From the NCBI GenBank assembly GCA_913062595.1, contig CAJXWT010000018.1, positions 1 to 32,181 on the forward strand: 32,181 nt of DNA, in the 5' to 3' direction. Of this stretch, positions 1 to 23,666 are shown in pieces. A program made the position numbers and the translations under genes. The notes under the pieces are model-generated. The model saw only the letters and a list, made by a program, of their open reading frames with translations, ran no database searches and was not told the origin of the DNA. Position 1 is the stretch's first letter, and every line of letters starts with the position of its first letter. The DNA is from an uncultured Fidelibacterota bacterium (GTDB lineage: Bacteria > Fidelibacterota > Marinisomatia > Marinisomatales > TCS55).

Positions 1-126
1 GGTCCCAGTATTGAAGCCTGGGATTTACGTACATATAATAACCAGGAAGTATCGTTTGGGGTATACGTTTTCCACGTTATCTCAAATAATCAGGAATTCA
101 CAGGAAAACTTGCGGTGATAAAATGA
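1..126 (+). CDS. C-terminal end of a secreted protein (partial)
   Basis: Frame 1 is open from the window edge to a TGA at 124-126 and encodes 41 residues ending GKLAVIK. This pattern (a ...GVYVFHV... strand followed by a short GKLAVIK end) resembles the last beta strands of C-terminal sorting or FlgD-like domains of proteins exported by type IX-like systems in FCB bacteria. The stop overlaps the ATG of the downstream PorV-like gene (ATGA, 123-126), so the two are probably translationally coupled. The body of the protein lies outside the window, so its function cannot be named. The coding status rests on the intact frame, the residue pattern and the coupled stop/start. Confidence 0.6.
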   Translation, partial: GPSIEAWDLRTYNNQEVSFGVYVFHVISNNQEFTGKLAVIK

Positions 127-5920: not shown

Positions 5921-6451
5921 CATAAAATAAATTATCACCCCGGTCACAGAAACATAAAGCCATAGGGGTAAAGTGATCCTGGCAATTTTTCTATGTTTAC
6001 CAATATTATTATTCCATCCGCGATATAAGGTGATAAGTGCTAACGGCACAATAATAGCTGCTAATAGAATATGGGAAATTAAAATGAAGTAATATAATGT
6101 TGTCCAATCACCTGTATACAACTTTGGACCACTTTTAAACCAATGGTAAATAACGTAACTAATTAAAAATGCGGTTGATGTACCAAAAGCTGACAACATA
6201 ACATTTTTATGCTGCAGTCGCTTCTTTTGTCTAATTAAACTATATCCAACAATTAATAGAACAGTCGTTACGCCATTTAAAGTTGCATTTAGGATTGGCA
6301 GAAAGGATACATCCAGAGATCCTTCAATTCCTACTGGTCTTGGACCAAGAATTAGAAACGCTACTGCACCTGATATTATAACAGAAACTATATATATTAT
6401 TCTCAGCCAGAAACTATCAGTGTTGGCTGTCAACATATTAAGGTATATCAT
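5909..6451 (-). CDS. DUF420 (CtaM/YozB-like) membrane protein, oxidase assembly
   Basis: This 180-residue polytopic protein has about five membrane segments. Its pattern is that of the DUF420/COG2322 family: LPILNATLNG near residue 50, the spaced histidines YHW and SHILLAA, then a C-terminal WLYVSVTGVIIYFMLY block. Members such as Bacillus/Staphylococcus CtaM are needed to make active heme-copper oxidase. It is the last gene of the respiratory cluster, after sco, which supports that role. The ATG at 6451 gives a 14-bp overlap with the sco stop. A second in-frame ATG at 6436 would begin 1 nt after that stop and is a reasonable alternative (175 residues). No clear ribosome site distinguishes them. 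Its 3' end overlaps the convergent fusion gene by 12 bp. Confidence 0.8.
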   Translation of the reverse strand: MIYLNMLTANTDSFWLRIIYIVSVIISGAVAFLILGPRPVGIEGSLDVSFLPILNATLNGVTTVLLIVGYSLIRQKKRLQHKNVMLSAFGTSTAFLISYVIYHWFKSGPKLYTGDWTTLYYFILISHILLAAIIVPLALITLYRGWNNNIGKHRKIARITLPLWLYVSVTGVIIYFMLYW

Positions 6452-7019
6452 TTATTAAAGATTGAATATCACGCGTCAAAATTTCATGTTCTGCTGGCTC
6501 TGTGCCAGAATAATAACCACGAAGATTCCCTTCATGATCAACCAAAGCAAAACGTGTACTATGAAAAACAATTTCCTCTACATCACCCATTTTAAAACCT
6601 TCCACAATTAATTCCTGAATTTGTTCATATTTTCCAGTCACAAAAGACCAGGAACCAACATCTGCATCGAATCGTTGCGCATATTTTTTTAGTATCTCCG
6701 GCGTATCATAATCCGGATTAACAGTAAAGGAAACAAATTTTAATTTATCAATATCGTGTAAATCATGTTGAACCATACCCATTCGTTCTGTCATAATTGG
6801 ACAAGGACCAGAACATGTCGTAAAAATAAAATCCGCTAACCATACATTACCTTTTACATTATCGAGAGTAAACCGGTCACCATCTTGATCAACGAGGCTG
6901 AATGCTGGTATTTCACCAATAACTGGGAGCTGTTCCCCTTCCGTCTCAGGTTGCATAACCGCAATCAAAGCTATAATCACAATCAAAGCCAATACATATA
7001 CCCATGGTCTGAAAAACAT
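6438..7019 (-). CDS. sco: Sco1/SenC/PrrC-family copper chaperone
   Basis: This protein of about 193 residues has one N-terminal membrane anchor (residues about 5-22) and a periplasmic thioredoxin-like domain. The copper-binding motif CSGPCP places cysteines at 69 and 73, and the third ligand is His153 in VFHSTRF, as in functional Sco proteins that load the CuA site of oxidase subunit II. I start at the ATG at 7019. An upstream in-frame TTG (7025) is possible, but AAAGGA (7028-7033) sits 8 nt before the ATG and only 2 nt before the TTG. The gene begins 2 nt after the ctaB stop, and its end overlaps the DUF420 gene by 14 bp. All three ligands are intact, so I expect an active chaperone. Confidence 0.92.
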   Translation of the reverse strand: MFFRPWVYVLALIVIIALIAVMQPETEGEQLPVIGEIPAFSLVDQDGDRFTLDNVKGNVWLADFIFTTCSGPCPIMTERMGMVQHDLHDIDKLKFVSFTVNPDYDTPEILKKYAQRFDADVGSWSFVTGKYEQIQELIVEGFKMGDVEEIVFHSTRFALVDHEGNLRGYYSGTEPAEHEILTRDIQSLINDIP

Positions 7020-7021
7020 GC

Positions 7022-7903
7022 TCAAATTCCTTTATCAATGATAATGATCACCATCAATAATGGTAAATAAAGAACAGACGCCTTAAGTATTCGGGAAGCA
7101 TTCTTGGACGATTTTTCCTTTAGCATTGGAATGGCAGATAAAAAATACAATAATGTTAATATTGTTGTACCAAATAGATAAATATTACCACTCATACCTA
7201 TGATAAATGGTAAGAAACATACTGGAAATAAGAGGCTAAGGTGCAAAAATATCTGACGGATCGTTCGTGAACCATTAGGTTCAATTACCGGTAACATTTT
7301 AAAACCTGCTTTTTGATAATCATCTTTACACATCCAAGCGATCGCAAAGAAATGTGGATGCTGCCATAAGTAAAGAATGGCAAATAGAATCCACGCACCA
7401 GAATCAACATTACCTGTCGCAGCTGTCCATCCCCCTAGCGGCGGCAGTGCACCTGGGATTGATCCTAATGATGTATTCAACCAAGTTAATTTTTTCATAG
7501 GCGTGTAGATTAATACATACATAAAAGCGGTTAATAATGATAGAAATCCTGTTAGGGTATTTATCTTCATAACTAGAATTATACTTCCCATAATTACAGC
7601 GGATACACCAAATAATAACGCATTCTGAGGTTGTATGATGCCAGCCGGTATGGGCCGATTACATGTGCGCTCCATCAGTTTATCTTGGTCGCGCTCTAAA
7701 TATTGGTTTAGTGCACCAGCGCCGCCTGCTGATAAGCCTGTTCCCAATAATGTCCAGATCAGCCTGATCCATGACATTGCACCCTCATTGCCCAAATAAT
7801 AACCTAAAAGAGTGGTAATGAGTACCATAATCAAAATACTCGGTTTCATAAGCTCTATATAAGCCCGAGTTATTAATAAAATATTGTTAAAGCCCTTATT
7901 CAT
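7022..7903 (-). CDS. ctaB: Heme O synthase (protoheme IX farnesyltransferase)
   Basis: This 293-residue UbiA-superfamily prenyltransferase has about eight or nine membrane helices. The first prenyl-diphosphate motif is NQYLERDQDKLMERT (66-80), the form seen in CtaB/COX10, with Glu at the first acidic position. A second conserved block, WQHPHFFAIAW with the following KDDY, is also typical of heme O synthases. It adds a farnesyl group to heme B, the first step to heme A. It lies directly after ctaA (10-bp gap) and before sco. A TTG one codon upstream (7906) is in frame, but the ATG at 7903 is preferred. No unusual residues are seen. Confidence 0.95.
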   Translation of the reverse strand: MNKGFNNILLITRAYIELMKPSILIMVLITTLLGYYLGNEGAMSWIRLIWTLLGTGLSAGGAGALNQYLERDQDKLMERTCNRPIPAGIIQPQNALLFGVSAVIMGSIILVMKINTLTGFLSLLTAFMYVLIYTPMKKLTWLNTSLGSIPGALPPLGGWTAATGNVDSGAWILFAILYLWQHPHFFAIAWMCKDDYQKAGFKMLPVIEPNGSRTIRQIFLHLSLLFPVCFLPFIIGMSGNIYLFGTTILTLLYFLSAIPMLKEKSSKNASRILKASVLYLPLLMVIIIIDKGI

Positions 7904-7913
7904 CAAATTAAAT

Positions 7914-8915
7914 CTACCATGATACTTTTGCTGGTGACACCCGTAAAATCAGCAGAGTACTTACGCCAAGAATTACTGCACCGTTAAAAACATGGATGCT
8001 GGTTATAAATGGTTCCTTGACTGACCAAATTGTAAAGGCACCTAATGTGATTTGAATAATTAGAAGTGTGATTAAAAATCCTGCTAATCGATATATTCTT
8101 TCATTACTGATCTTCGATTGAATAATTTTCCATGTTAGCCACCCAATTGATATCGCCACAGCTAACGCACCAATACGATGAAAATAATGAATAATAATCT
8201 GACTCAATGTAACAAATGGTAATCCTGACTCAAATTGCATCGATTGAATTGTATTTAGCATTTCTTGGTTAAAAGTTGGGATTATATACCCACCAGATAA
8301 CGGGAAATCAGGAATTGCCAATCCAGACTGCGTATGCCGCATCAGTGCTCCAATAATTAATTGTATATACACAAGACTGGTAACTAAGTATGTAGGGAAT
8401 CTCAGAACCTTATAATCAGTTCTTTCATTTAGTATGCGATTCGCTCTTTCATTTGATAATCCATAGGCGATCAAAACAGTAACCATTAGAAATGTTTGGG
8501 CTAGTAGAGCATGAATTACAGAAACAGGTGTCGGTAAAAATAAAAGGACGGTTAACCCACCAAAAAGTCCTTGAATGACCACCAAACAAAGGGCGAAAAA
8601 AGCTGTCCTTATTAACCATAGTCTTTGACCAGTATAATATATCGTAAATGCCAAAATTAGTGTCATAAGACCGACCATAGTTGCTATCATACGGTGGCCA
8701 TGCTCATAGAAAATGCCACCAATCATATCTGAAAGAGGGAAAGCAAACATCTGGTAACCATAAGATGTGGGCCAATCTGGTACCGACAAACCAACTTCAT
8801 GGCTTTTGACCAAGGCACCGGTAAAAATTAATAACAGAGTTGAAATCACCAATAATTTGGATAAGCGGCGTACCCAAACGGTAGCGAATTGATCGCTGTA
8901 ACTAATTTCCCCCAT
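7914..8915 (-). CDS. ctaA: Heme A synthase
   Basis: This 333-residue membrane protein has about eight helices in two homologous halves, as in CtaA/COX15. Family signatures are GLSVPDWPTSYG in the first half and the related GLAIPDFPLSGG in the second. Conserved histidines lie in EHGHRMIA, VIHALLAQ, HYFHRIGA and IHVFNGA, the expected heme ligands. It oxidises the methyl group of heme O to give heme A for the oxidase encoded upstream. Together with ctaB it makes the locus self-sufficient for heme A. It starts 42 bp after coxB. No ribosome site is evident before its ATG. Confidence 0.95.
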   Translation of the reverse strand: MGEISYSDQFATVWVRRLSKLLVISTLLLIFTGALVKSHEVGLSVPDWPTSYGYQMFAFPLSDMIGGIFYEHGHRMIATMVGLMTLILAFTIYYTGQRLWLIRTAFFALCLVVIQGLFGGLTVLLFLPTPVSVIHALLAQTFLMVTVLIAYGLSNERANRILNERTDYKVLRFPTYLVTSLVYIQLIIGALMRHTQSGLAIPDFPLSGGYIIPTFNQEMLNTIQSMQFESGLPFVTLSQIIIHYFHRIGALAVAISIGWLTWKIIQSKISNERIYRLAGFLITLLIIQITLGAFTIWSVKEPFITSIHVFNGAVILGVSTLLILRVSPAKVSW

Positions 8916-8957
8916 TTAATATTACAGTAGCAATAAATGCTAATAATAGAGGTCTAT

Positions 8958-9800
8958 TTACCAGTCGTCCTCATCGCCCCACTCATCTTCTTCACTATCT
9001 TCTTCGAGATATTGAGCCTGTAATTCTAACCAGAGATTATAATCATCTTCTGTATCTATGGTTAGGTACCCCCGCATTCGATAATGCCCTAGGCCACACA
9101 ACTGAGCACAGGCTATTTCTAATCCTTTGCCTTCCCGAGGAGTACCTGTCATTTTTTGTAGAAATTCCTCTGATGTCGTATTTGCTTCAAAATGAACTGG
9201 TATACTCATGCCCGGTATAGCATCTTGCCCTACCCGAAGTTCTGGAAGTTTGAAGCTGTGGATCACATCCTTAGTTGTAAGATCGATGCGGATTTTCTTA
9301 TTGACTGGTATATGCATTTGATTGATTGTATAAAAGTCATCATCTGCGCCTGGACTGGAACGGTCCAACCCAATAGGATTATTTACCTCATCTACAAGTT
9401 CTGGTTTTGAACTACCGAATATTCCATCTGCACCTGGGTAGTGAATATTCCATACATACTGTTGGGCAACGACCCGTATGTATACCGCTCCGTCTCCGGA
9501 AGTCGGTACATCATTTACCCGATTTGCCCATATTGGGAACGCAAAGCCAATTAATAATACAATTTCTACTACAGCCACAGCAACTTCGAGAACAGAAGAA
9601 AGATGGGATTTTACACCCATATGATCTGCATCTGGATTTTTTGATGCCCTAAACTTTACAAGTGATATAATAAAAAAAGCACCCCAACCAATAAATAACA
9701 CTAACATTAGCCAGTGCGTCAAAACGATAATTTCATCAATACCAGGACCAGCCTCTGAAAGACTGATCGGCAGTCCGTAATTCTGCAGAAATTTTAGCAT
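8958..9800 (-). CDS. coxB: Cytochrome c oxidase subunit II (CuA subunit)
   Basis: This 280-residue protein has two N-terminal membrane helices (about 25-45 and 70-95) followed by a cupredoxin domain with a CuA site. The ligands are His181 in DVIHSFKLP and C231-A-Q-L-C235-G-L-G-H239-Y-R-M242, with Gln as the backbone-carbonyl residue instead of the more common Glu. There is no C-terminal CxxCH, so this is an aa3-type rather than a caa3-type subunit II and needs an external electron donor. The aromatic stretch QQYVWNIHYPG is the usual electron-entry region. The C-terminus is a long acidic tail ending EDEWGDEDDW, very like the tail of the octaheme cytochrome in the same cluster. It sits 3 bp after the small CATCYG protein gene. 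Confidence 0.95.
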   Translation of the reverse strand: MLKFLQNYGLPISLSEAGPGIDEIIVLTHWLMLVLFIGWGAFFIISLVKFRASKNPDADHMGVKSHLSSVLEVAVAVVEIVLLIGFAFPIWANRVNDVPTSGDGAVYIRVVAQQYVWNIHYPGADGIFGSSKPELVDEVNNPIGLDRSSPGADDDFYTINQMHIPVNKKIRIDLTTKDVIHSFKLPELRVGQDAIPGMSIPVHFEANTTSEEFLQKMTGTPREGKGLEIACAQLCGLGHYRMRGYLTIDTEDDYNLWLELQAQYLEEDSEEDEWGDEDDW

Positions 9801-9803
9801 AAA

Positions 9804-10055
9804 TTACCTATTATCCATTATATCTGTGTTTGACAACTGTAACGGATTTGATTTTGATCTTTTGTATAAGGAAACAGTTGCGATAATTATAAATGATAAT
9901 ATACTTCCTGTAAAAGCCAGTAGAACAAGAATAGCCATATTTAACCCCTGGGTAGCCGGGGTATCGGGCGCTCCATAACAGGTCGCACATGCCATTAACA
10001 ACTTAGGAAAGCCAATAATTAGAATAAGAAATACTAATCTAATCAATTTAATCAT
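9804..10055 (-). CDS. Small CxxC membrane protein of the oxidase cluster
   Basis: An 83-residue protein with an N-terminal signal or anchor segment (residues 5-22), a CATCYG motif at 23-28, one further membrane helix (about 40-62) and a short basic cytoplasmic tail. LMAC at 20-23 also resembles a lipobox, so lipidation at Cys23 is possible. The motif lacks the His of CxxCH and is not a heme c site. Its ATG overlaps the upstream stop (ATGA at 10052-10055), and coxB begins 3 bp after its own stop, so it is translated with the oxidase subunits. I do not know a characterised family. A metal-binding or assembly role is inference from the paired cysteines and position. Confidence 0.7.
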   Translation of the reverse strand: MIKLIRLVFLILIIGFPKLLMACATCYGAPDTPATQGLNMAILVLLAFTGSILSFIIIATVSLYKRSKSNPLQLSNTDIMDNR

Positions 10056-10249
10056 ATGGTTTTGAATTTCTGCATTATACGAAAAAAATAGATCATTAAA
10101 GCGCCTCCAATAATAAAAGAAAATACAGCAAATATCACTGATACAATTCCTGGGTTGGAAGGTGTTATTAATTCAAATATACCATATCCAATAGTTAGTA
10201 TTATGGCTAAACCAATGAAAAATAAATGGAATGTTTTAAGAGATATCAT
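10052..10249 (-). CDS. Small two-helix membrane protein of the oxidase cluster
   Basis: A 65-residue hydrophobic protein with two predicted membrane helices (about 8-27 and 34-56), a basic C-terminal end (MQKFKTI) and no cysteines or histidines suggesting cofactors. It is coupled on both sides by ATGA overlaps: its start overlaps the subunit IV stop (10246-10249) and its stop overlaps the start of the CATCYG protein. That tight coupling supports it as a real gene despite its size. It could be a small accessory or assembly subunit of the oxidase; no sequence feature shows which. I do not recognise the family. Confidence 0.65.
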   Translation of the reverse strand: MISLKTFHLFFIGLAIILTIGYGIFELITPSNPGIVSVIFAVFSFIIGGALMIYFFRIMQKFKTI

Positions 10250-10554
10250 CCAACTTGAGCCTGGTCAATAAATGATGCCATTGGTATAAACATGAGTACA
10301 AAAAAGAAACCAGCGGTAAGCATCAGTATCCACGTAATTAATGCTCTCTCAGATATAAGATGCATGAAATAACTCGCCACCAATGATCCTTTAACAGAAG
10401 CAATAGTCAAGGCAAGCAAAATCCCTTCACCTGTACTTAGGTCCAGGTAAGATGCTGCAACGGTTATTATAGTCAAAGCAGCTAATGCTGCAAAAACCGT
10501 CATATATACTTTAATATGGCTTTGAATATCTGCTGTACTGTGTCCACTACTCAT
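10246..10554 (-). CDS. Cytochrome c oxidase subunit IV (COX4_pro-type)
   Basis: This 102-residue protein has three membrane helices. It matches the bacterial oxidase subunit IV/CyoD-like family: an N-terminal HIKVYMTVFAAL helix, then ALTIASVKGSLVASYFMHL, the most conserved block of the family, then a final helix. Such subunits stabilise the catalytic core, particularly around subunit III. It follows coxC by 12 bp and has the strongest ribosome binding site in the cluster. It begins the run of three genes joined by ATGA overlaps. Confidence 0.88.
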   Translation of the reverse strand: MSSGHSTADIQSHIKVYMTVFAALAALTIITVAASYLDLSTGEGILLALTIASVKGSLVASYFMHLISERALITWILMLTAGFFFVLMFIPMASFIDQAQVG

Positions 10555-10562
10555 GAATTATG

Positions 10563-10568
10563 CCTCCT
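10563..10568 (-). promoter_or_regulatory. Consensus ribosome binding site of oxidase subunit IV
   Basis: AGGAGG lies on the minus strand 8 nt before the ATG at 10554. It is a full anti-Shine-Dalgarno match, unlike most starts in this cluster, which have weak or no site. It fixes the subunit IV start and suggests strong initiation feeding the coupled small genes behind it. Confidence 0.75.
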
Positions 10569-11163
10569 AAAGCAGGTAAAGAACTGGAAAAAGAAAAATC
10601 CACACTAAATCAACAAAATGCCAATACAGGCCAGCAATCTCAATACGGTTCGTAAATTGTTCTGGTTTTGAATCCCACATTTTACTACCTGGTATCCAGA
10701 AATAAAAAAGAACGATCATGCCCCCAATAATGTGCAATCCATGGAGTCCGGTAAGCGTAAAGTAGATTGCATAAAATGTATTGGTACTGGGGTAGATATG
10801 GTGATCAAACTTCGCAGTATATTCTATATATTTTATTATCAGAAATCCCAAAGCACATAATAAAGTTAACCCCATATAAAGTTTGTATTTTTTGAAGTCA
10901 TTTAGCTTGAGAGAAGCCCAAGACATTACCATAGTTACACTGGATGAAATCAAGATCAGTGTATTTAATGTAGCCAGGGGTATATTAAGTTCCTGCCCCC
11001 ACTCATGAAACGCACCTACTGGTGCACCGTACCGTAAAAATATATAAGCGGAAAAAAGACCGCCAAAAAGCATTACTTCAGATGCTAAGAATAACCAAAC
11101 ACCCAATTTCGCATTAAATAACCCCGTATCAGGCCTTTCTTCTACCGTATAGGGAATGTCCAT
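10567..11163 (-). CDS. coxC: Cytochrome c oxidase subunit III
   Basis: This 198-residue protein has five membrane helices, the short bacterial form that lacks the first two helices of the mitochondrial type. Conserved features are KLGVWLFLASEVMLFGGLF near the start, with the family's Glu in the first helix, the TGLHGLHIIGG block around 135-150, and the terminal HFVDLVWIFLFP segment. Subunit III keeps the proton-pumping core stable. It lies 9 bp after coxA and 12 bp before subunit IV. A modest site (AAAGGA) lies upstream of the ATG. Confidence 0.95.
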   Translation of the reverse strand: MDIPYTVEERPDTGLFNAKLGVWLFLASEVMLFGGLFSAYIFLRYGAPVGAFHEWGQELNIPLATLNTLILISSSVTMVMSWASLKLNDFKKYKLYMGLTLLCALGFLIIKYIEYTAKFDHHIYPSTNTFYAIYFTLTGLHGLHIIGGMIVLFYFWIPGSKMWDSKPEQFTNRIEIAGLYWHFVDLVWIFLFPVLYLL

Positions 11164-11172
11164 GATTTTTCT

Positions 11173-12891
11173 TTATCCTTTTTTTGGTTCTGTTTGCGGT
11201 GTGAAATCCCTTTTACGACCTGGTACACTATACTCATAAGCTACCCGGTGTACTTCTGGTATCTTTTCGAAATTAACATGAGGCAGTGGTGGCGAGGGCG
11301 CTGTCCATTCTAATGTGGTAGCACCCCAAGGGTTTTTATCAACTTTTTCGCCGCGCTTTAAACTGTAAAAAATATTAAAAATAAATGGTAGCTGAGCTAG
11401 GCCGAGTAACCATGCAGAAATTGACATAAATTCATTCCAATGCAACACACCGGAAGCGTGGGCATACTCGAGTCCACCATCCCAAAGTCGGCGTGATACA
11501 CCTGCCAAGCCCTGGATAAACATGGGCATAAAAACACCATTCATGAATATCAGGGAAGGCCAAAAATGTAGTTTACCTAATAGCTCACTCATTTTTCTAC
11601 CAGTAATTTTTGGATACCAGTAATAAATACCGGCAAATAGGCCAAAAATCGTACCCGGTGCAACAACATAATGAAAGTGTCCAATTACATAATAAGTATC
11701 ATGCAGATAAATATCTGCTGCTGCAAAACCCAGAGGTAAACCAGTTAAGCCACCAATGCCGAACATTGGTAAAAATGCCAAGGCGAATAGCATGGGTGTA
11801 TTAAAACGGATTGAGGCCCCCCAAAGCGATATGAAAAATGCTGATAATATTATTATCGAAGGGATGGAAATTATCATGGTTGTGGTCTGGAAAAATGCAC
11901 TCATGGCTGTGCCCATTCCGGTTATAAACATATGGTGGGCCCAGACAATAAAGGACATGAAACCAAGAAAAACCACAGCGAATACTAAAGAATTATAACC
12001 CCATAATGGTTTACGAGTGTTGTTTGCAATCACTTCAGCTATAATACCCATGGCTGGTAAAATCAATACATAAACTTCAGGATGAGCTAAGAACCAGAAA
12101 AGGTGCTGCCATAAAAGCGGGCTACCACCACCGCTAACACCTAATACTTCGCCAGAAACAACTAGACCGCTGGGTAAAAAGAAACTGGTGCCAGCTACAC
12201 GATCCATCAGCTGTAAAACAGCGGCCGCTTCCAGTGGTGGAAACGCCAAAACCAATAAAAATGATGTGACGAATTGAGCCCAGACGAAAAATGGTAGCCG
12301 CATCCAGGTAAGTCCAGGTGCACGTAATTGGATGATGGTTGTGATAAAATTGATAGATCCAAGCAAAGAGGATGTAATTAGAAAAATCATTCCAATAAGC
12401 CACATTGTTTGTCCTACCTCAATATCTGCCAATGGCGGATAGGAAGTCCACCCTGATCTGGCAGCTCCCTCAGCAGTAAAAAAACTGCTCATCATTACAA
12501 CACCACCAACAAAATAACACCAGTAGCTTGCGGCGTTTATTTTTGGAAAGGCCATATCAGGGGCGCCGATCTGTAGCGGGACTATATAGTTACCAAAAGC
12601 ACCTACTGCCAGCGGCACAATACCAAGAAAAATCATAATTGTACCATGCATTGCACCTAATGAATTGTAGATCTCTGGCAATAACATTCCATCTTCTCCA
12701 AATATTGATCCGACTAGCGGTACTGCTGATTCAGGATATGCTAATTGCCAGCGCATGATCATCATCAATGAGAATCCAATTAAAAGAAAAATCAAAGAAG
12801 TGATTCCATACTGTAACCCTATGATTTTGTGATCAGTAGACCAGATATATTTTCTATAAAATGGCTCTTCGTGGTGATTATGGGAATCCAT
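11173..12891 (-). CDS. coxA: Cytochrome c oxidase subunit I (A1-like)
   Basis: This 572-residue protein has twelve or more membrane helices. All metal ligands are visible: His82 (heme a) in AMHGTIM, His270 in HPEVY (CuB, presumably cross-linked to Tyr274), His319 and His320 in WAHHMF (CuB), and His405 (heme a3) and His407 (heme a) in GHFHYV. Glu272 in HPEVY is the D-channel glutamate diagnostic of A1-type oxidases, so a proton-pumping aa3 enzyme is expected. The N-terminus is His-rich (SHNHHEE). AAGGA lies 6 nt before the ATG. It is preceded by the cupredoxin gene (48-bp gap) and followed by coxC. Confidence 0.97.
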   Translation of the reverse strand: MDSHNHHEEPFYRKYIWSTDHKIIGLQYGITSLIFLLIGFSLMMIMRWQLAYPESAVPLVGSIFGEDGMLLPEIYNSLGAMHGTIMIFLGIVPLAVGAFGNYIVPLQIGAPDMAFPKINAASYWCYFVGGVVMMSSFFTAEGAARSGWTSYPPLADIEVGQTMWLIGMIFLITSSLLGSINFITTIIQLRAPGLTWMRLPFFVWAQFVTSFLLVLAFPPLEAAAVLQLMDRVAGTSFFLPSGLVVSGEVLGVSGGGSPLLWQHLFWFLAHPEVYVLILPAMGIIAEVIANNTRKPLWGYNSLVFAVVFLGFMSFIVWAHHMFITGMGTAMSAFFQTTTMIISIPSIIILSAFFISLWGASIRFNTPMLFALAFLPMFGIGGLTGLPLGFAAADIYLHDTYYVIGHFHYVVAPGTIFGLFAGIYYWYPKITGRKMSELLGKLHFWPSLIFMNGVFMPMFIQGLAGVSRRLWDGGLEYAHASGVLHWNEFMSISAWLLGLAQLPFIFNIFYSLKRGEKVDKNPWGATTLEWTAPSPPLPHVNFEKIPEVHRVAYEYSVPGRKRDFTPQTEPKKG

Positions 12892-12939: not shown

Positions 12940-13653
12940 TTACTTCTTTTTCGGTTTTTTCGGTTTTGTAAAAGTAAAATTCGCTGCACTATCACCTACC
13001 GTTACATTTGCTGTTTGTGATCCGAGTTTTTCATGCCATGCCTCAATAACATAAACCCCCGGTTCCAAACCGGAGATTACATAGCTGCCGTCATCGCCAG
13101 TTACCGCAAAATAGGGATGGTCAAATACACCTATAAAAGCACCCATCCAGGGATGGACATCACATTTTACCTTAAATGGTGCTTCTGATTTATCAAACTG
13201 TACTGTCATTCGTTTTTTAGAGCGCGGCATTGCTTTGTTGAATTCCTTATTTACCTTTGGAAGAGCATGGATATTATGCATTGTGCCATCACTGTTTAAA
13301 ATATCCAGCTTCTGACCAACCATCACGCCCAGCACATGGGGTACATACATACAACCATTTTGATCAATAACTGCAGGGTTCTCAGTCGGATTAAAGTCAC
13401 CTGCCAGTGACCCGGTCGAACTTTCTTTTACAAATACCAGAACATTCTTCAAACCATTATTCTCATCGAGTATTAACCACTCTTTTCGTGGTGCTACTTC
13501 ATTATTAGCAACACATACTGGATCAGCGTCCATTCGTAGCAATTTCATTTTTGGTGCTTTGCCATCAAAGGTTATTTTCCCTTGAATATCTCCTGCAAAA
13601 CCAAAGGTCAAAACAGATGACAGAATTAATATTTTAATTATATTATTATTCAC
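12940..13653 (-). CDS. Secreted cupredoxin with a carboxypeptidase-regulatory-like domain
   Basis: A 237-residue exported protein. I start at the GTG at 13653, because GGAGG lies 5 nt upstream and this start gives a clean signal peptide (MNNNIIKILILSSVLTFGFA). An ATG at 13680 would add nine non-signal residues. The core has type-1 copper ligands: His126 or His129 in MHNIHAL, then Cys164, His167 and Met170 in KCDVHPWM. A short CarboxypepD_reg-like beta domain follows (GDDGSYVISGLEPGVYVIEAW), and the C-terminus is Lys/Pro-rich. Similar proteins are annotated as cupredoxin or methylamine-utilisation-like. Its position between the octaheme cytochrome and coxA suggests an electron carrier or an accessory subunit; that is inference. 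Confidence 0.82.
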   Translation of the reverse strand: MNNNIIKILILSSVLTFGFAGDIQGKITFDGKAPKMKLLRMDADPVCVANNEVAPRKEWLILDENNGLKNVLVFVKESSTGSLAGDFNPTENPAVIDQNGCMYVPHVLGVMVGQKLDILNSDGTMHNIHALPKVNKEFNKAMPRSKKRMTVQFDKSEAPFKVKCDVHPWMGAFIGVFDHPYFAVTGDDGSYVISGLEPGVYVIEAWHEKLGSQTANVTVGDSAANFTFTKPKKPKKK

Positions 13654-13658
13654 AATTT

Positions 13659-13663
13659 CCTCC
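13659..13663 (-). promoter_or_regulatory. Ribosome binding site deciding the cupredoxin GTG start
   Basis: GGAGG on the minus strand is 5 nt upstream of the GTG at 13653. The longer ATG start at 13680 has no comparable site and puts charged residues ahead of the signal peptide, so the GTG is preferred. Confidence 0.7.
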
Positions 13664-13734
13664 GTATAAATCCATACCATTTAAAGTTTTAATTTTGCCA
13701 ATGCATGTTATAAATCCAATAGCAAAATAAATTA

Positions 13735-16700
13735 TTACCATTCTTCATCTTCCCATTCGTCTTCATCTTCAGTTATAAAACCATAGCCCTGGCTTTCAAT
13801 ATGAGCCTTTACAATCGCTGAAACATCTTCTACCCCTTCAAGCCCCCACATCCAATCCACAAGGGTATATAACATCGCTGTAGTGTCCCCAACAAAGGTA
13901 GCAACCTCGGTACCCCAGTATTCTATAACATCATTAATGGGCTCATCAACAGGAATGTATGGAGCAGGCATTTTCGTGCCAGGCATAACAGATTGTGGAT
14001 TATTAAACCATTCAATCAGCCAATCTGGTCGCAGGCGTTCTTTGGTCAACACCAGGTTTGGTGCCCAGGTGAGGGCATCTTGCCGCGGTTTCATGGCTCC
14101 ATAGAAATGACAGTTTATACAAGCACCTTCTTCTTGAACTTTTTGACCAGCTAAATATGAATTAGAAGCTTGTGAAAAACTGTGAGGATTCTCATAGGTG
14201 AGGGACAGACCATCTTTTGATTGAAAATAATCAATTACACCATTCCATTCCTGATGGGTAAAATCATAACTAGGCATCCGCACCTGTAAATGCGGTCGTA
14301 TCATCGATACATTTTGGAACCAATCCAATAACCAGTCCGGCTGAACTTTCCGACCTTCGGTATTCAATAATGGAGGGCTAAAACTCTGTACCAGGCTTAT
14401 ATCTTCGGAATTTTCAGATCCCGCAACTTCCCCAAGCCAAGCTGCAGTTGCCGTCCAAATTGCGCCACCTTCACCATCAATTTTATGGCAACCAAGACAA
14501 TTATTTGTATGTATGAATCGTTCACCTTTTGTTACCGCTAAATAAGCAGGTGTTTTTTCTGGAAGTTTACTCTCGGGGATTTCATCTTTTACCAGTCCCA
14601 TTATCAAGGTTACTAAGGCATCGATTTCTTTATCCGTTAACCCGTAATGTGGCATCCGAGACTTATCTAATGAAGGTAATTCCTTAACTGCATAAGTACC
14701 ATCGTCATTTGGTATGAGGTCGAAAGTTTCCGGCTTATCAACCTTAGCATAAAACCAGTCCCATTTTGTATGCGGTATTTCATCATGCCAAAACGCAAAA
14801 TCAAGCTTAGAGATTAATTTACTCCCTTCAACATTGAGGGAAGTCCCAATTGGTTTTTTACCTTCAAATCCAGCAATATTATGGCAGGAGTAGCAACCAT
14901 AATTCCCAATAAGCTTCTCACCAGCATAATTGAGCTTTTCAGAAATTTCCATATCTTCCAACCGGCGAGCAACCTGATCTTGGCGTAATAACTGGGAAAG
15001 AAAATCTGCAGAAATCCGATCAACTATTGATTCGTTGACACTGGGTACAGCTAATTGATCAAACGTTTTATTTTTATCAGCTAATAAATATGCAGCAATA
15101 TCGGCAGCTTCCTGGTCACTTAATCGCAGATTCGGCATCTTTGTATCTGGATGATAACTGTAAGGATTCTTCAACCAACCTAATAGCCATTGTCTATTTA
15201 CTTTTGATCCCAAACTTATGAGGTTTGGCCCCTGTTCAGTTCGTATAGCGTCAACAGATGGATCATATTCAGAATCTGGTTCGGGCTGAATTTGATGACA
15301 ACCTTTGCATCCCAGAGAATTAACCAGAACCCTGCCCTTTTCTTGGTCTCCGGCATAATCAACGTTAGCTGTTTTATATGGTGTTGCTGTAGAGAATAAG
15401 TATTCGGTCATTGCGAGAACTTCTTGCTCAGTTCGTTTTAGGTCTTCAGGATCACTATTATTTCCTTTCTTAAAAAAATGCGGCATCCAGGTGTTATGTC
15501 TGAATGAACGTGGCTCAAAGATCCATTTATATGTCCAATCTTTATTTGTCTTTGAAGCCAAATGGTAAAGACTAGGCCCCGGTTTTGGTAAATCATTCCA
15601 ACGGTCAACCTGATGACAAGCATAACAACCTGCTTTTTCAAAAACAGACAAACCAAGACTTAATGTTTCTGCTTCTTTAAGCGGCATATTACCACTATGA
15701 CATTTATAACAACCTGCTTCTGTATACCTTTTAGGCAGCATGGGGTTTTCCCAGTAATGCATTGGTTCCCAGCCTAATTCTTTTTCCCAACGATGGGCCG
15801 TTTCTTGATCATTTGGACTATGAGCTGTTGTATAGAATCTAGTTCCTCTTCCTCTTCCTGCATGACATGACGTGCACCCAAATTCACTTAGCGGGTGCGC
15901 TGAACTAGGTCCAACAATAAAATCCAATTTGGGGTGGGTTTTGTATGGCTGAGGTGCATCTTCGAAACCAGCTTTATCAATTCCTACATGACAAGTCATG
16001 CAACGATCCACCTTTGGCATACCCATGTAAATTAGGTCTTCTTCCAGGCCCTTAACTACGACCTGCTTTACCTCATAATAGGGATCAATAAAATCGATTA
16101 CAGGTAAATCACGTACTATGTTTCCAATTTTGTTTGCGAAAGACATTGCTTCTGGGTCAACCTTTGTCAACCTTCGTTTTAAAAGACTGTTCTCGCGTGT
16201 TAACGTTGTTAATGAATTTTTTGCTTCATCAATATATTTTCTAATTTTCCGCTCTTGGCTTTTGACAGTTTCAATTCTACTCTCCGTTTCTTGTACATCT
16301 AAGTAGTACTTATTCACATGTATGTTTAAACCGCCATATTCTTCACCTGCATTTTCACTGCCTCCATGACCAAATTGACTTTTTTCATATTCATATTTCA
16401 AAACATCCAAATCAGCCTTGGCAAATTGATAGAGTTGATTATTTTTATAAAGCTCTGCATCCAGTATTTCCAATTGCTGAACAATTTCATCTAATTCGTT
16501 CTGACGGACAGTCAATTTCTTTTCTGCTGCAGATAGCTCTTCAACCAGCTGATTGTAATTAGAATTTTTTTCAAGGGCAGCTGACTCTGCATATAAATCC
16601 TGGCGGATTTTTTCTATTTCCAGTTTACGAAATTCTATTTGGTATTTTTTCCAAGGTCTTTGAAAATCATAAACAAATACCAGTATCCAAACAGCAAAAA

Positions 16701-16773
16701 ATACTAAACTTGAAATTGCAAAAGCGCGATTGAGCTTGAGTATATTATAGTGTCTTTCCTGATTATCCGCCAT
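13735..16773 (-). CDS. Membrane-anchored coiled-coil octaheme cytochrome c
   Basis: A 1012-residue protein. Residues about 15-36 form one membrane anchor. Residues about 45-205 are strongly heptad-like and charged (coiled coil). The rest is periplasmic with eight CxxCH heme sites, first Cys at 258, 300, 355, 383, 489, 627, 759 and 885. The later ones sit in cytochrome-c-like modules with downstream Met-containing segments (for example DTKMPNLRL, GTKMPAPYIP). The C-terminus is acidic and ends EDEWEDEEW. It begins 9 bp after the cytochrome b C-terminal-half gene, in the position of cytochrome c1, which is otherwise missing. It probably takes electrons from the Rieske protein and passes them to the oxidase. 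Large multiheme cytochromes accompany bc complexes in several phyla, but I do not recognise a named family with this stalk. Confidence 0.9.
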   Translation of the reverse strand: MADNQERHYNILKLNRAFAISSLVFFAVWILVFVYDFQRPWKKYQIEFRKLEIEKIRQDLYAESAALEKNSNYNQLVEELSAAEKKLTVRQNELDEIVQQLEILDAELYKNNQLYQFAKADLDVLKYEYEKSQFGHGGSENAGEEYGGLNIHVNKYYLDVQETESRIETVKSQERKIRKYIDEAKNSLTTLTRENSLLKRRLTKVDPEAMSFANKIGNIVRDLPVIDFIDPYYEVKQVVVKGLEEDLIYMGMPKVDRCMTCHVGIDKAGFEDAPQPYKTHPKLDFIVGPSSAHPLSEFGCTSCHAGRGRGTRFYTTAHSPNDQETAHRWEKELGWEPMHYWENPMLPKRYTEAGCYKCHSGNMPLKEAETLSLGLSVFEKAGCYACHQVDRWNDLPKPGPSLYHLASKTNKDWTYKWIFEPRSFRHNTWMPHFFKKGNNSDPEDLKRTEQEVLAMTEYLFSTATPYKTANVDYAGDQEKGRVLVNSLGCKGCHQIQPEPDSEYDPSVDAIRTEQGPNLISLGSKVNRQWLLGWLKNPYSYHPDTKMPNLRLSDQEAADIAAYLLADKNKTFDQLAVPSVNESIVDRISADFLSQLLRQDQVARRLEDMEISEKLNYAGEKLIGNYGCYSCHNIAGFEGKKPIGTSLNVEGSKLISKLDFAFWHDEIPHTKWDWFYAKVDKPETFDLIPNDDGTYAVKELPSLDKSRMPHYGLTDKEIDALVTLIMGLVKDEIPESKLPEKTPAYLAVTKGERFIHTNNCLGCHKIDGEGGAIWTATAAWLGEVAGSENSEDISLVQSFSPPLLNTEGRKVQPDWLLDWFQNVSMIRPHLQVRMPSYDFTHQEWNGVIDYFQSKDGLSLTYENPHSFSQASNSYLAGQKVQEEGACINCHFYGAMKPRQDALTWAPNLVLTKERLRPDWLIEWFNNPQSVMPGTKMPAPYIPVDEPINDVIEYWGTEVATFVGDTTAMLYTLVDWMWGLEGVEDVSAIVKAHIESQGYGFITEDEDEWEDEEW

Positions 16774-16782
16774 ATTATTAGA

Positions 16783-17901
16783 TTAGAAATTGAAAAAATA
16801 TTCTGGGATAGCGATTATATACTTTAGGTTAAACATCCAGCGTAGATACATTTTTATTGGCAGTGTTATAGCAATAAGTATTAGTACTATAAAAACAGAA
16901 TAACGTACTGAACCTAATCGTGCATACATATCTTTCAGGAATGTTTTTGCGAGGAGGGGTGGTAGAATGAGAAAGTAACCTAGTAATATTGATATACCCC
17001 AAATCTCACGTATAATAATGCTATCTGGTAATCCTTTGTTTAGCCATTTTATATAAATTATTTCAGAAACGTTTATGTTGGTTAGCGCTTCTAATTTGTG
17101 GATATCCCAATATTCGAATGGACCGAAGATATTCCAGTTAGGACCTCTTAAAAATGTGCCAACAATGATAAGCATTAACCATAGCACGAGCCAACCAAAC
17201 ATAAATACAGAAATTGCTAATCGGCGACGGTTGTAGCTAAAAAATCCGGAATTTTCAGGATTGCGATCAATGTATGGTATGGCCATTAAACCTACAAGAA
17301 TTAGACTTGGAATTACCACACCAGCCATCCAAGGATCAAAATACACCAGCATCTCTTGCAGGCCCAAAAAATACCATGGCGCTTTTGCTGGATTTGGCGA
17401 TTCCGTGGGGTTGGCGGGTTCTTCAATTGGAGCAGGAAGCCCTATTGACCAGACAAGCAAAAAAGCAGAAGCAATAATTAATGATATTAGCTCAACATAG
17501 ACTAAATCCGGCCAAACCAGTACTTTATCATTGGGCGCTTCAAAATATTCATTGGGTTTTTCTCCAGCATTAAGCCTTTCATCGTTTTTATATGCTTGGT
17601 TCATGGCTAACCAGGTAAAAAATGCCACCAGAAATATCAGACCTGATATGGGTACATTATCTGGTTTTAGTACAATCTTTTGAAAGTTGTAATCACCAAG
17701 TCCATACATGAAAAACGCCACCATGCCAAGCATCGCAATGACGATAAATTTTGTACCCCATAAATGATGTAATCCTAGGCGCCGGTGCCATTTTTCAAAC
17801 CAATCACTTGGAGGAAAGATAAATGGAAAAACTAAAACAACTGTTGTAAACAGTATTGTCGGGTTTGATATATAATTTACAATTTCCTTAAAGGAGTCCA
17901 T
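16783..17901 (-). CDS. Cytochrome b C-terminal half (subunit IV-like, extended)
   Basis: A protein of 372 residues, more than twice the length of PetD (about 160). Two or three extra N-terminal membrane helices (FIVIAMLGMVAFF, ISGLIFLVAFF) precede the core helices that form the quinol oxidation site. The Qo motif reads A-P-W-Y-F (P175, W176, Y177) where PetD has P-E-W-Y-F, so the Glu is replaced by Pro. More helices follow, ending near FNLKYIIAIPEYFFNF. I use the ATG at 17901, 2 nt after the cytochrome b stop; a TTG at 17946 is in frame but would overlap cytochrome b by 43 bp. With the preceding gene it forms a split cytochrome b of the b6/IV kind. The substituted Qo motif may tune it for a low-potential quinol such as menaquinol (inference). 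Confidence 0.9.
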   Translation of the reverse strand: MDSFKEIVNYISNPTILFTTVVLVFPFIFPPSDWFEKWHRRLGLHHLWGTKFIVIAMLGMVAFFMYGLGDYNFQKIVLKPDNVPISGLIFLVAFFTWLAMNQAYKNDERLNAGEKPNEYFEAPNDKVLVWPDLVYVELISLIIASAFLLVWSIGLPAPIEEPANPTESPNPAKAPWYFLGLQEMLVYFDPWMAGVVIPSLILVGLMAIPYIDRNPENSGFFSYNRRRLAISVFMFGWLVLWLMLIIVGTFLRGPNWNIFGPFEYWDIHKLEALTNINVSEIIYIKWLNKGLPDSIIIREIWGISILLGYFLILPPLLAKTFLKDMYARLGSVRYSVFIVLILIAITLPIKMYLRWMFNLKYIIAIPEYFFNF

Positions 17902-17903
17902 TA

Positions 17904-18698
17904 TCAAACTGGTGTTGAGATGCCACCATCTTTTCTTACCCGCCAAAAATGTATCGACATGAAAATCATTATTATAAAAGGTAAGCCAATGCAGTGCAGC
18001 ACATAGAATCGAAGTAATGCAGCCTCACCCATAAAACGCCCGCCAATTAATGCAAATCGCGCATCACTAGCCATGGTGATGAAATTAATATCTCCTATTG
18101 CTAGTAAAGAGGCTCCAGGTCCTTCATGACCTAGAAATGGTGCTGCGCGAGCCATATTTGAACCTACTGTAATGGCCCAGATTGCCAGCTGGTCCCATGG
18201 TAATAAATAACCGGTAAAACTTAACATAAGAGTCAACAACAAAAGGATGACGCCAACCGTCCAATTGAATTCCCTTGGCGGTTTATACGAACCTGTCATA
18301 AACACTCTAAACATATGCAGCCAAACAGTAATAACCATGGCGTGAGCACCCCAACGATGTAACTCACGCATAATGCCAAAGGGCACCTGTTCAGCAAGAT
18401 CAATAATATCCGTATAGGCATATTCAATTGTTGGGCGGTAATAAAACATGAGCAGAATACCTGATATCGTAAGAATCAGGAAGATGAAGAAAGAAAGACC
18501 ACCCATACACCAGGTAAATTTCAGTTTAACGGCATGTTTAGGCAGTCGCACTGGGTGAAGATGGAGAAACACAGAATTCAATACGGACATCATGCGCTGG
18601 CGTCGATTTCGTGGTACGCCTCCACCACGGAAAATAGATTTCCACACTTGTGATTCTGCTGCTTTTTCTAAAAATGATTTTTTTGTTTGTTCAGCCAT
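17904..18698 (-). CDS. Cytochrome b, b6-type (N-terminal half)
   Basis: A 264-residue protein with four core membrane helices. Two bis-His heme pairs are visible: His114 and His128 (HRWGAH ... WLHMFRV, spacing 14), and a second pair in LHCIGLP ... SIHFWRV with spacing 15, the b6-type spacing. The signature SFTGYLLPWDQ and the end VRKDGGISTPV match cytochrome b6. Cys64 in WCMGG aligns with Cys35 of cytochrome b6 (YCLGG), the covalent attachment site of heme ci/cn. I use the ATG at 18698; an in-frame GTG at 18710 directly after the Rieske stop is possible, and neither has a clear ribosome site. The basic N-terminal extension (GGGVPRNRRQR) is cytoplasmic. Confidence 0.95.
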   Translation of the reverse strand: MAEQTKKSFLEKAAESQVWKSIFRGGGVPRNRRQRMMSVLNSVFLHLHPVRLPKHAVKLKFTWCMGGLSFFIFLILTISGILLMFYYRPTIEYAYTDIIDLAEQVPFGIMRELHRWGAHAMVITVWLHMFRVFMTGSYKPPREFNWTVGVILLLLTLMLSFTGYLLPWDQLAIWAITVGSNMARAAPFLGHEGPGASLLAIGDINFITMASDARFALIGGRFMGEAALLRFYVLHCIGLPFIIMIFMSIHFWRVRKDGGISTPV

Positions 18699-18710
18699 AT
18701 TTTTTATCAC

Positions 18711-19277
18711 TTAGACTCTTAAAAAGGCTTCGGGATCTGACCATTGTCCTTTTTCTTGTTGATATTTTTGTGTTTTGTCAACGATGATTTCACCATCGTC
18801 TGCTAACACAATACGATACCTTTCCAATGGTCTTGGTGCAGGCCCTTCAAAATTAATCCCCGTTGATTTGAACCCACTTCCATGACAGGGGCATTTAAAT
18901 TTCCTAGCAGATGCTAACCAGTTAGGTGTACAACCAAGATGTGTACATACAGTAGACAACGCATAAATACCCTCACGATTTCGAATAATCCAAACGCCAT
19001 ATTTATCCTTCCATTTTGTGTCTACTTCGCCAATAATATAATCATCTGGATAACCCGCTCGAAATGTTTGCACGGGTTCAAAAAGGACATTTGGAAAAAA
19101 GAATCTGAGCATCATTGTAAAGAAACCACCCGTTGAAGCTACAAACCCTATCCAGCCCAAAGACAGCCAGGAAAAGAAAGATCTTCTGCTGACCTCGTTG
19201 TCCTTTACGGTTTCCCCTAATGCTGCAGGCGCTTTACGAACCGGTGGTTTGGTTGCTGTTTTTTTCCCCTCTAGCAT
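18711..19277 (-). CDS. Rieske iron-sulfur protein
   Basis: A 188-residue protein. The N-terminus is cytoplasmic and basic, then SRRSFF (30-35) matches the twin-arginine export signal, followed by the membrane helix (about 38-60). The [2Fe-2S] site is complete: C111-T-H113-L-G-C116 and C129-P-C131-H132-G-S-G, so both disulfide cysteines and both His ligands are present. It takes electrons from quinol at the Qo site of the adjacent cytochrome b and delivers them to the c-type cytochrome. It starts 15 bp after the HEAT-repeat gene and its stop nearly abuts cytochrome b. The family is certain. Confidence 0.96.
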   Translation of the reverse strand: MLEGKKTATKPPVRKAPAALGETVKDNEVSRRSFFSWLSLGWIGFVASTGGFFTMMLRFFFPNVLFEPVQTFRAGYPDDYIIGEVDTKWKDKYGVWIIRNREGIYALSTVCTHLGCTPNWLASARKFKCPCHGSGFKSTGINFEGPAPRPLERYRIVLADDGEIIVDKTQKYQQEKGQWSDPEAFLRV

Positions 19278-19292
19278 GGTTTAATAAAGTGT

Positions 19293-20165
19293 TTATTTAA
19301 GTGTGTTTCTAGCCGCCTGGCGAACTTTCATATTTAAATCGTTTTCCATCAAATCCATCAACACTTGCCGCAATTCATCATCCAAAATATTCCTACTTGC
19401 TCTTATAGCTGCTAATATCGCTTGATTTTGCTCAACTGCATCAATATTAGGAAATGAATCTAGATATTTTCTGTCCATAAGGTCTAATAATATTCTACGC
19501 CCACTATCGTCTTTTTGCTTTGCTAATGCAATGGCTGCATCCCATCTAACGTTTGGTTCAAGATCATGTAAAGCCTGTTTTAAAACAGTCTTGACATGAT
19601 CGCCATCATAATTGCCCAAGGCCACTACCACCTGATGTCGCACTCTTGCAGATTCATGTTCAAACATATGTAACAATTGTTCAAGACTGGTTGGACTGTT
19701 AATCAATCCTAGTGAATAAATTACGGCAGCTAGGATTTCTTCATTTTCAGCATTCAATGTTTTTTCTAAAATGGTCGCATATCTCAAATCCTTTGTTCTG
19801 CCCATAGCTAAAGCTAAATAGATACGAATTCGATCATCGCGTTCTTTCTCAGAATACTCGAATGTTGATATCAGATCATTCACAAATCTTTCTTCTCTTG
19901 GGATCATTCCAGGATTCGCTAATATCTTAGATAACTCAAAGGCTCCCTGCCAGCGCTTGGTGGTACCACCAATTTTTACATCATGTAAATAATCCTGAGC
20001 AGTTCTGGGTTCAATCGTAAGGATACGAAGCATAAGAAAAATCAATACTCCAAAAATCGCTATTATAAAAGGCACAACAAAAAAGCTATGAATCACTACT
20101 CTAAGGAGTGACTTTTTTTCGGCCGGAAAGTCGTTTGGCAGATTTTCGCTATTTTTTATAGCCAT
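19293..20165 (-). CDS. Membrane-anchored HEAT-repeat protein
   Basis: A 290-residue protein with a short cytoplasmic N-terminus, one membrane helix (about 24-48) and then about 230 residues of helical pairs. The repeats read like PBS-lyase-type HEAT units: ILAAVIYSLGLINSP, VRHQVVVALGNYDG, VRWDAAIALAKQKD, MKVRQAARNTLK. There are about five or six. It is the first gene of the respiratory cluster and ends 15 bp before the Rieske gene. HEAT repeats bind other proteins, so it could be a scaffold or assembly factor for the bc complex or a bc-oxidase supercomplex; nothing in the sequence proves this. No cofactor motifs are present. Confidence 0.82.
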   Translation of the reverse strand: MAIKNSENLPNDFPAEKKSLLRVVIHSFFVVPFIIAIFGVLIFLMLRILTIEPRTAQDYLHDVKIGGTTKRWQGAFELSKILANPGMIPREERFVNDLISTFEYSEKERDDRIRIYLALAMGRTKDLRYATILEKTLNAENEEILAAVIYSLGLINSPTSLEQLLHMFEHESARVRHQVVVALGNYDGDHVKTVLKQALHDLEPNVRWDAAIALAKQKDDSGRRILLDLMDRKYLDSFPNIDAVEQNQAILAAIRASRNILDDELRQVLMDLMENDLNMKVRQAARNTLK

Positions 20166-23400: not shown

Positions 23401-23666
23401 ATTGAAGAAGGTGATATAATATCTGGATCAACCATCATATCGAACTGCATTCCCGATATAGTATTATTTGGGTTATTTACAATTACAGGAACTTCTATAT
23501 CTGAAGCGTATCCTGGATACTCTACTGTCCCTAATGTTACCGTTAATTGTGCGTGTAGGGCACCAATCAAAAAAGTAATGTAAAACATTAGATTCTTACT
23601 GAGTATATTGGGACAGTACATTTTTAATTTATAAATATTTACCATATTATTAATTTTTGAATGCAT
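20409..23666 (-). CDS. Secreted multidomain protein: cohesin-like repeats, nested FN3, T9SS-type C-terminal domain
   Basis: A 1085-residue protein. A long n-region precedes the signal core FYITFLIGALHA, with cleavage expected before Gln40. Five divergent cohesin-like beta-sandwich modules lie at about 41-172, 175-308, 577-700, 705-848 and 850-985. They share patterns such as PDYI followed by TxRTxGWTL. Between modules 2 and 3 an FN3 domain starts at 313 (NLIAVSGLDGEVPLNWDPP) and resumes at about 508-575 (SGYNLYRSS ... GPSNIADATP); the gap holds a domain with YDSFGDGICCGWG (Cys410, Cys411). Residues 992-1085 are a sorting domain (YPNPFNP, GAGVYIYQL, KMILVK) of the type IX/FlgD-like class. AAGGA 5 nt before the ATG supports the start. 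It is presumably surface-displayed; the ligand is unknown. Confidence 0.88.
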   Translation of the reverse strand: MHSKINNMVNIYKLKMYCPNILSKNLMFYITFLIGALHAQLTVTLGTVEYPGYASDIEVPVIVNNPNNTISGMQFDMMVDPDIISPSSINAGGSPAGFAADMNQLSSGAYRILLFNAGNAASIPANSDTVMTIHFDGSAIASAVIDLVMSELIVTDSSGSNLGAMSGNGMVSIGYVVGLSMSSDTSDVSEMDTLQVSMDNNGTVGGVQFDLLDQPDYISIDSLWATDRTTGFTISTTDVGSGTRILLYSDMNNDVAPGAGPILNVRYLIHNDAYGGDVLINFNAVTVSDSIGGIYWISTLDTGKVTVFPGYMEEPHNLIAVSGLDGEVPLNWDPPVGPIPPTVPLTIEILTDNYPGETSWDLVHIDGDSIVASIFTGELVDQATLYTWDLNIPSGGYIFTIYDSFGDGICCGWGEGYYRIVLNGTEIATGGEFEASESVTFNTSDGRFNIIQYSYLNSMPIEKELSTYEDREDFTLSLPFFVDAGIINVRDQEDDIDESRDYPSHRSMPAVSGYNLYRSSADAAEYQLIASVGADVYEYTDSEVMNGVTYYYHVTTDYSPEGTESGPSNIADATPVEWVELSISDGSALSGHTDTLDISINNEAEISFFYIEITDEPDYIIAESILPTNRTQGWTLDVTEASGVMVVTGWGTSSYIASGSDPVCKVIVRGASMEPSMVDVEFTFCNIKDFNDVEMNWTGSDADFEVSVETQVLAIPNAVANPGDGITVPLMISNTQPVSAIQLSLSSEANYVSGVTVIPTDYMDFNDWYFGGNQEGNQYNIIITDLTLSNPILAGMGHIADIYLYVEPTAPVGNSVSIEIDKIVADANSIPMYTEVISPSVFVGTPMAHFSLDADITMSGYATETVTISLDNILPISVFEMLLIDMPDGLLVTAVNPAGRFADVGGLLLDNSGEDEYGNCFIFGYTVGSAIPAGSGPVLELSVQRKNYFGGHLGLFFGDVTARDENTDEVTVGATGYGVFSIALGTIDDIALPNRYTLYQNYPNPFNPVTVIQYDLPEKSKVKLTIYDLAGRQVRSLVNESQAPGLKTIVWDARDGMGNKMGAGVYIYQLKTDNYIDSKKMILVK

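Follow-up and report, generated by a model that had tools for sequence, protein, structure and literature searches.

The best precedent for the system described here is the Kustd1480-1485 complex of the anammox bacterium Kuenenia stuttgartiensis, in which a b6-like cytochrome b and an enlarged subunit IV are joined by a large multiheme cytochrome whose long helices wrap the complex (PMC12954380). Rieske/cytochrome b clusters are also paired with multiheme cytochromes in Geobacter (the ExtO-S cluster; PMC5877670) and in Methanoperedens (PMC4683180). A comparable locus lies in the window, by which we mean the whole analysed stretch of 32,181 nucleotides (contig CAJXWT010000018.1 of assembly GCA_913062595.1) from an uncultured Fidelibacterota bacterium. 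Here a Rieske/cytochrome b operon includes the gene for an octaheme cytochrome, and genes for a cupredoxin and an A1-type oxidase lie alongside (Table 1).

Compared by its published description, the Kuenenia complex resembles this system in the b6-like cytochrome b with an enlarged subunit IV, in a hexa- or octaheme cytochrome replacing cytochrome f, and in the transmembrane helix and long helices of that large multiheme subunit. It differs in possessing an NAD(P) oxidoreductase module, for which there is no gene among the ORFs of the window's operon, and in serving anammox metabolism, whereas the window system has a HEAT subunit, a cupredoxin, an aa3 oxidase and charged C-terminal tails. The likeness to the Geobacter proteins lies in the cytochrome b halves, which match ExtP with 266.8 bits (cut-off 290) and ExtQ with 60 bits (cut-off 150), both below cut-off; ExtO/ExtP/ExtQ/ExtS, in contrast, are linked to metal or selenite, accompany other multiheme proteins and belong to an anaerobic context. 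With the b6f complex and the Bacillus menaquinol:cytochrome c reductase the window complex shares the split cytochrome b, the position of the heme cn cysteine and a b6f-type Rieske protein, and the acceptor of b6f is likewise a cupredoxin (plastocyanin); it departs from b6f in the octaheme protein taking the place of cytochrome f, the additional HEAT subunit and an APWY instead of a PEWY motif. The actinobacterial bcc-aa3 system also couples a multiheme c subunit to an aa3 oxidase without soluble cytochrome c, but its QcrC is diheme, as against eight hemes and a cupredoxin in the window system. Finally, cytochrome c1 and ActA of alternative complex III are p-side c-type cytochromes feeding an oxidase; the former is monoheme, while ActA yields weak heme-domain matches only and belongs to an NrfD-based core, unlike the Rieske/cytochrome b core seen here.

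Table 1. Features of the octaheme cytochrome locus and the adjoining oxidase genes (positions in the window)
Feature	Position	Strand	Basis
HEAT-repeat protein, membrane-anchored, one TM, first gene of the complex operon	19293..20165	-	PF13646
Rieske iron-sulfur protein, CTHLGC...CPCHGSGF	18711..19277	-	PF00355, motifs
Cytochrome b6-like N-terminal half, Cys68 at 18507-18509	17904..18710	-	PF00033, b6/ExtP models
Subunit IV-like cytochrome b C-terminal half, about 8 predicted TM	16783..17946	-	PF00032, cytb6_f_IV
Octaheme c-type cytochrome, 1012 aa, in place of cytochrome f/c1	13735..16773	-	eight CxxCH
Single transmembrane anchor, residues 17-35 (best hydrophobic 19-mer)	16669..16725	-	hydropathy
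Long helix 1, residues 41-133, first arm of the proposed hairpin	16375..16653	-	AlphaFold secondary structure, periodicity
Long helix 2, residues 139-205, second arm of the proposed hairpin	16159..16359	-	AlphaFold secondary structure
Triheme module, hemes 1-3, residues 258-375	15649..16002	-	Pfam, conserved columns
Five class-I cytochrome c domains, hemes 4-8, residues 376-955	13909..15648	-	PF00034, invariant columns
Acidic-Trp tail of the octaheme protein, ...TEDEDEWEDEEW	13738..13773	-	disordered in model, pLDDT<50
Cupredoxin, 246 aa, Cu ligands H135, C173, H176, M179	12940..13680	-	invariant ligands, fold
Lys-rich cupredoxin tail KPKKPKKK	12943-12966	-	sequence
Cox1, A1-type oxidase subunit I	11173..12891	-	PF00115
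Rest of oxidase operon: Cox3, Cox4, CtaA, CtaB, Sco-like, DUF420	5909..11163	-	CtaB, Sco-like named from sequence
Cox2, CuA ligands, acidic-Trp tail	8958..9800	-	PF00116, CoxB
Acidic-Trp tail of Cox2, EEDSEEDEWGDEDDW	8961-9005	-	sequence pattern

The gene order HEAT, Rieske, N-terminal and C-terminal halves of cytochrome b, octaheme is kept in 26 complete loci, one of them in an Acidobacteriota MAG (L012; 35% identity), and the Rieske and cytochrome b genes thus sit in one conserved operon, as is typical of bc-type complexes. The octaheme proteins diverge in step with the other four subunits (r 0.85-0.94 between the distances), and wherever a locus has enough flanking DNA the linkage to bc genes is retained. 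The b6-like half carries its Cys68 in 32 of 33 sequences; its match to the PRK03735 profile begins at query residue 63 and profile position 38, with Cys68 falling near profile position 43, which we take to be the position of the cysteine that covalently binds heme cn/ci in b6/QcrB. The subunit IV-like ORF likely starts at an ATG near 17901, and its Qo motif reads APWY (17371-17382) rather than PEWY, as do all 49 subunit IV-like sequences. The core therefore shows the b6f-type split of cytochrome b together with the heme cn cysteine, with the octaheme protein instead of cytochrome f as the exit subunit; it is unlike canonical bc1, where a single cytochrome b of 7-8 helices is joined by a monoheme c1. 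The sequence-only reading had placed the octaheme protein in the cytochrome c1 position. Its role as a substitute for the c-type exit subunit in a Rieske/cytochrome b complex stands, yet because the core is b6f-like the position that it occupies, judging from these homologies, is that of cytochrome f. The HEAT-repeat protein is likely an unrecognised subunit or assembly factor of the complex. The same genome encodes a second, compact bc complex (L074, G000:C44:225-2341) made up of a 176-aa Rieske protein, a 404-aa fusion of cytochrome b with one class-I cytochrome c, and a small protein with two hemes.

The octaheme ORF, as first read from the sequence, is confirmed; it opens with an ATG 9 bp after the preceding gene, and its single membrane helix is borne out by hydropathy. 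Confirmed too are the eight CxxCH sites spread over about 630 residues: they begin at residues 258, 300, 355, 383, 489, 627, 759 and 885 (span 258-889), against 0.007 expected from residue composition, and all eight are kept in 47 distinct family sequences of more than 900 aa, the window's protein included. Apparent heme losses in three sequences (L052, L053, L019) were rejected, as they stem from X residues at ambiguous bases. Pfam PF00034 (class-I cytochrome c) matches in four stretches of the protein, and cytochrome c7/c3-like models match near hemes 2-4. In an alignment of 40 sequences, three histidines beside hemes 1-3 (H280, H293, H318) are invariant, as is a methionine after each of hemes 4-8 (M430, M546, M707, M833, M935). 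We propose from these columns that hemes 1-3 form a bis-His triheme module and hemes 4-8 five His/Met class-I domains, the ligands being predicted from conservation. An HAO-like octaheme enzyme was considered and dropped: hemes 4-8 lie in separate class-I cytochrome c domains and not in the compact HAO/OCC octaheme fold. PDB sequence searches recovered no whole-protein relative, only heme-domain matches, and a plasmid search gave nothing beyond short cytochrome c matches. One genome (G170) has two full-length octaheme copies (C3:17769-20798 and C44:810-3839), each with a tail.

Across a sample of 199 genomes of the phylum, octaheme matches at E <= 1e-3 occur in 87, and the 78 genomes with strong matches were counted as carriers; A1-type Cox1, with a cut at about 1e-140 and one fragment added, is present in 75. 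The two are found together in 72 genomes, with six having only the octaheme protein and three only the oxidase (Fisher 7e-43, a p-value that overstates independence, the genomes being related). The tie to the oxidase supposed at the outset thus holds in 72 of 78 carriers. One genome scored as lacking Cox1 (G048) has a tailed Cox2 on another contig, and some of the exceptions are therefore incomplete assemblies.

The cupredoxin gene lies between the octaheme gene and cox1, and most loci have it close to the octaheme gene. Its four copper ligands are invariant in an alignment of 35 sequences, and its AlphaFold model (pLDDT 91) matches amicyanin, pseudoazurin and plastocyanin in Foldseek, so that type-1 copper ligands and a predicted cupredoxin fold coincide. 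It is a single-copy gene without another close relative in the genome, where the second cupredoxin hit is a weak partial match within a 970-aa frame.

The reading that we favour, with moderate confidence, is that the octaheme protein serves as exit subunit on the p side of a b6f-type Rieske/cytochrome b complex, and that electrons pass from the Rieske protein through it to the cupredoxin and on to CuA, with the tails serving in docking and a helical hairpin resting on the core. It builds on directly supported observations, namely gene content, conservation, co-inheritance, co-occurrence with the oxidase, the predicted cupredoxin fold and the sharing of tails. The octaheme protein would consist of a transmembrane anchor, an antiparallel hairpin and eight heme sites, three of them in a bis-His-type module and five in class-I His/Met domains. 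By homology, quinol, probably menaquinol, would be oxidised at the Qo site; the Rieske head would hand electrons to one of the octaheme hemes, which would pass them outwards; and the cupredoxin would ferry them to CuA of the aa3 oxidase, docked or captured through its Lys-rich tail by the acidic-Trp tails of the octaheme protein and Cox2. Such a path, with an octaheme relay and a cupredoxin in lieu of cytochrome c, would provide a concrete link from complex III to complex IV for an abundant and mostly uncultured marine phylum, and would bring the octaheme Rieske/cytochrome b complex, earlier known from anammox bacteria, into an aerobic chain with a HEAT subunit. We found no paper describing this octaheme complex in Neomarinimicrobiota, which is weak evidence of absence as most subscription papers lay outside the search.

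What is new here is that the octaheme protein and Cox2 end in a common acidic-Trp tail (...DEDEWEDEEW and ...EEDEWGDEDDW, respectively) and that the cupredoxin has a Lys-rich one. In the whole 2.37 Mb genome exactly two sites fit the DNA pattern for [DE]3-W-stop, namely the ends of the octaheme and cox2 genes; of the 109 matches listed from a subset of 45 genomes that carry the octaheme gene, octaheme ends account for 28 and cox2 ends for another 28. Other matches that were inspected include two more cox2 genes (L088, L097), a c-type cytochrome (L085) and two long molybdopterin-enzyme-like ORFs (L080, L083). The L085 case (1842-2438, G136) is a cytochrome-like protein of 198 aa ending in SDEEEDEDW. 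The terminal Trp was also considered as an outer-membrane beta-signal, a candidate dropped in view of the acidic character and the lack of an alternating pattern.

The Lys-rich tail terminates the cupredoxin in most loci. Family f19 lacks both acidic tails and has a weak cupredoxin tail; family f18 is intermediate, without a tail on the octaheme protein but with one on Cox2. In the other lineages the mean net charge of the last 12 residues is -7.8 for the octaheme protein, -7.6 for Cox2 and +3.6 for the cupredoxin. Tail charges of the octaheme protein and the cupredoxin correlate at only -0.57, and the co-variation, uncorrected for phylogeny, comes from one or two evolutionary events (f19 and partly f18). 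The odd tails of two loci (L006, L020) were set aside as ambiguous or frameshifted ends. More tentatively, and with somewhat less than even confidence, we suggest that one private acidic-Trp tail was acquired by both the octaheme exit cytochrome and Cox2, matched by a complementary Lys tail on the cupredoxin, and that a tail-captured copper carrier would shuttle between the octaheme b6f-like complex and the aa3 oxidase. Through these tails, the docking of a mobile carrier to donor and acceptor alike can be put to a direct test. The Lys tail of the cupredoxin could instead bind lipid. It also seems rather unlikely, if still worth weighing, that the two acidic tails are a recognition tag, whether for one maturation or assembly factor common to both proteins, for lipid or for calcium, with no part in electron transfer, the path being otherwise as we favour it: the tail is present on Cox2 variants with rather different bodies (L052, L053, L059, L060), but in f19 the basic cupredoxin tail is weak or lost along with the acidic ones.

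The sequence-only reading also envisaged the heme chain as a wire reaching the oxidase. In its fullest form this would be a III-IV supercomplex in which a terminal heme of the octaheme protein reduces CuA directly and the acidic-Trp tails bind a common scaffold. The close co-occurrence with the A1 oxidase, the single operon in the window and the privacy of the tails to the octaheme protein and Cox2 accord with such an arrangement, for which the mycobacterial bcc-aa3 without soluble cytochrome c is a precedent (PMC4505504). A small soluble cytochrome c was found by neither PF00034 nor PF13442 in this 90%-complete genome, where it could be missing from the assembly. This negative speaks for the direct transfer and for the cupredoxin path alike. 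Outside the oxidase and complex operon, these models hit a fusion of cytochromes b and c, a diheme protein whose N-terminal part has a hydrophobic segment, and two ORFs, one of 722 aa that is quinoprotein-like and one of 1132 aa. We nevertheless judge the direct transfer unlikely: a conserved cupredoxin with an oppositely charged tail is encoded between the genes, two acidic tails would repel and not bind each other, and in many genomes the oxidase genes lie elsewhere in the assembly. Since the gene of this cupredoxin, with its complementary tail, lies between those of the octaheme protein and the oxidase, a continuous heme wire is not needed, and the copper carrier is the likelier last step. 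That the octaheme protein is a branching hub feeding further acceptors such as nitrate, metals or sulfur compounds, with the oxidase as one outlet, is very unlikely: its eight hemes are of two kinds and the multiheme subunits of the anammox, Geobacter Ext and Methanoperedens R/b complexes do work in non-oxygen chains, but its co-occurrence with an aerobic oxidase is near one-to-one and no other reductase genes were seen in the window.

The region after the membrane helix had been read as about 160 residues of coiled coil forming a stalk. A helical and proline-poor region is indeed there, residues 45-204 being proline-free in 39 of 47 family sequences, but it consists of two helices (41-133 and 139-205) and not of a single coil. 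The AlphaFold model (pLDDT 75, pTM 0.61; residues 223-319 of very low confidence and hemes 1-3 poorly modelled) places a Gly-rich hinge at residues 134-138, and among homologues the Gly-rich break (134-150) differs in length and sequence. Foldseek gave no match below E 0.001 for this model; its top PDB hits are uniformly weak (best E 0.09) and fall mostly on coiled-coil segments such as those of Smc, SH3BP5, PI3K iSH2 and EmrA, which we take to be antiparallel. On the strength of the break and of these mainly antiparallel, if weak, matches, the model makes an antiparallel hairpin likelier than a straight stalk. A parallel coiled coil that fixes a distance from the membrane, oligomerises the complex and keeps the hemes off the membrane is accordingly very unlikely; it would suit helices poor in proline and rich in Glu, Lys and Leu, the first with a hydrophobic period of 3.4 residues (reached by 35 of 5000 shuffles), but it conflicts with the variable break, with the nearest structural neighbours and with the report that the Kustd1485 helices wrap their complex (PMC12954380). 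The hairpin would probably lie against the Rieske/cytochrome b core, running along it or around it, instead of acting as a mast that lifts the hemes.

The remaining genes of the window include those for a PorV-like protein (123-1220, plus strand), a 1539-aa protein (1301-5920, plus strand) with an N-terminal AMP-binding (acyl-CoA ligase-like) domain, a long middle part and a C-terminal GNAT domain, and a protein that has a cohesin domain together with a C-terminal sorting domain of type IX secretion (20409-23666, minus strand).
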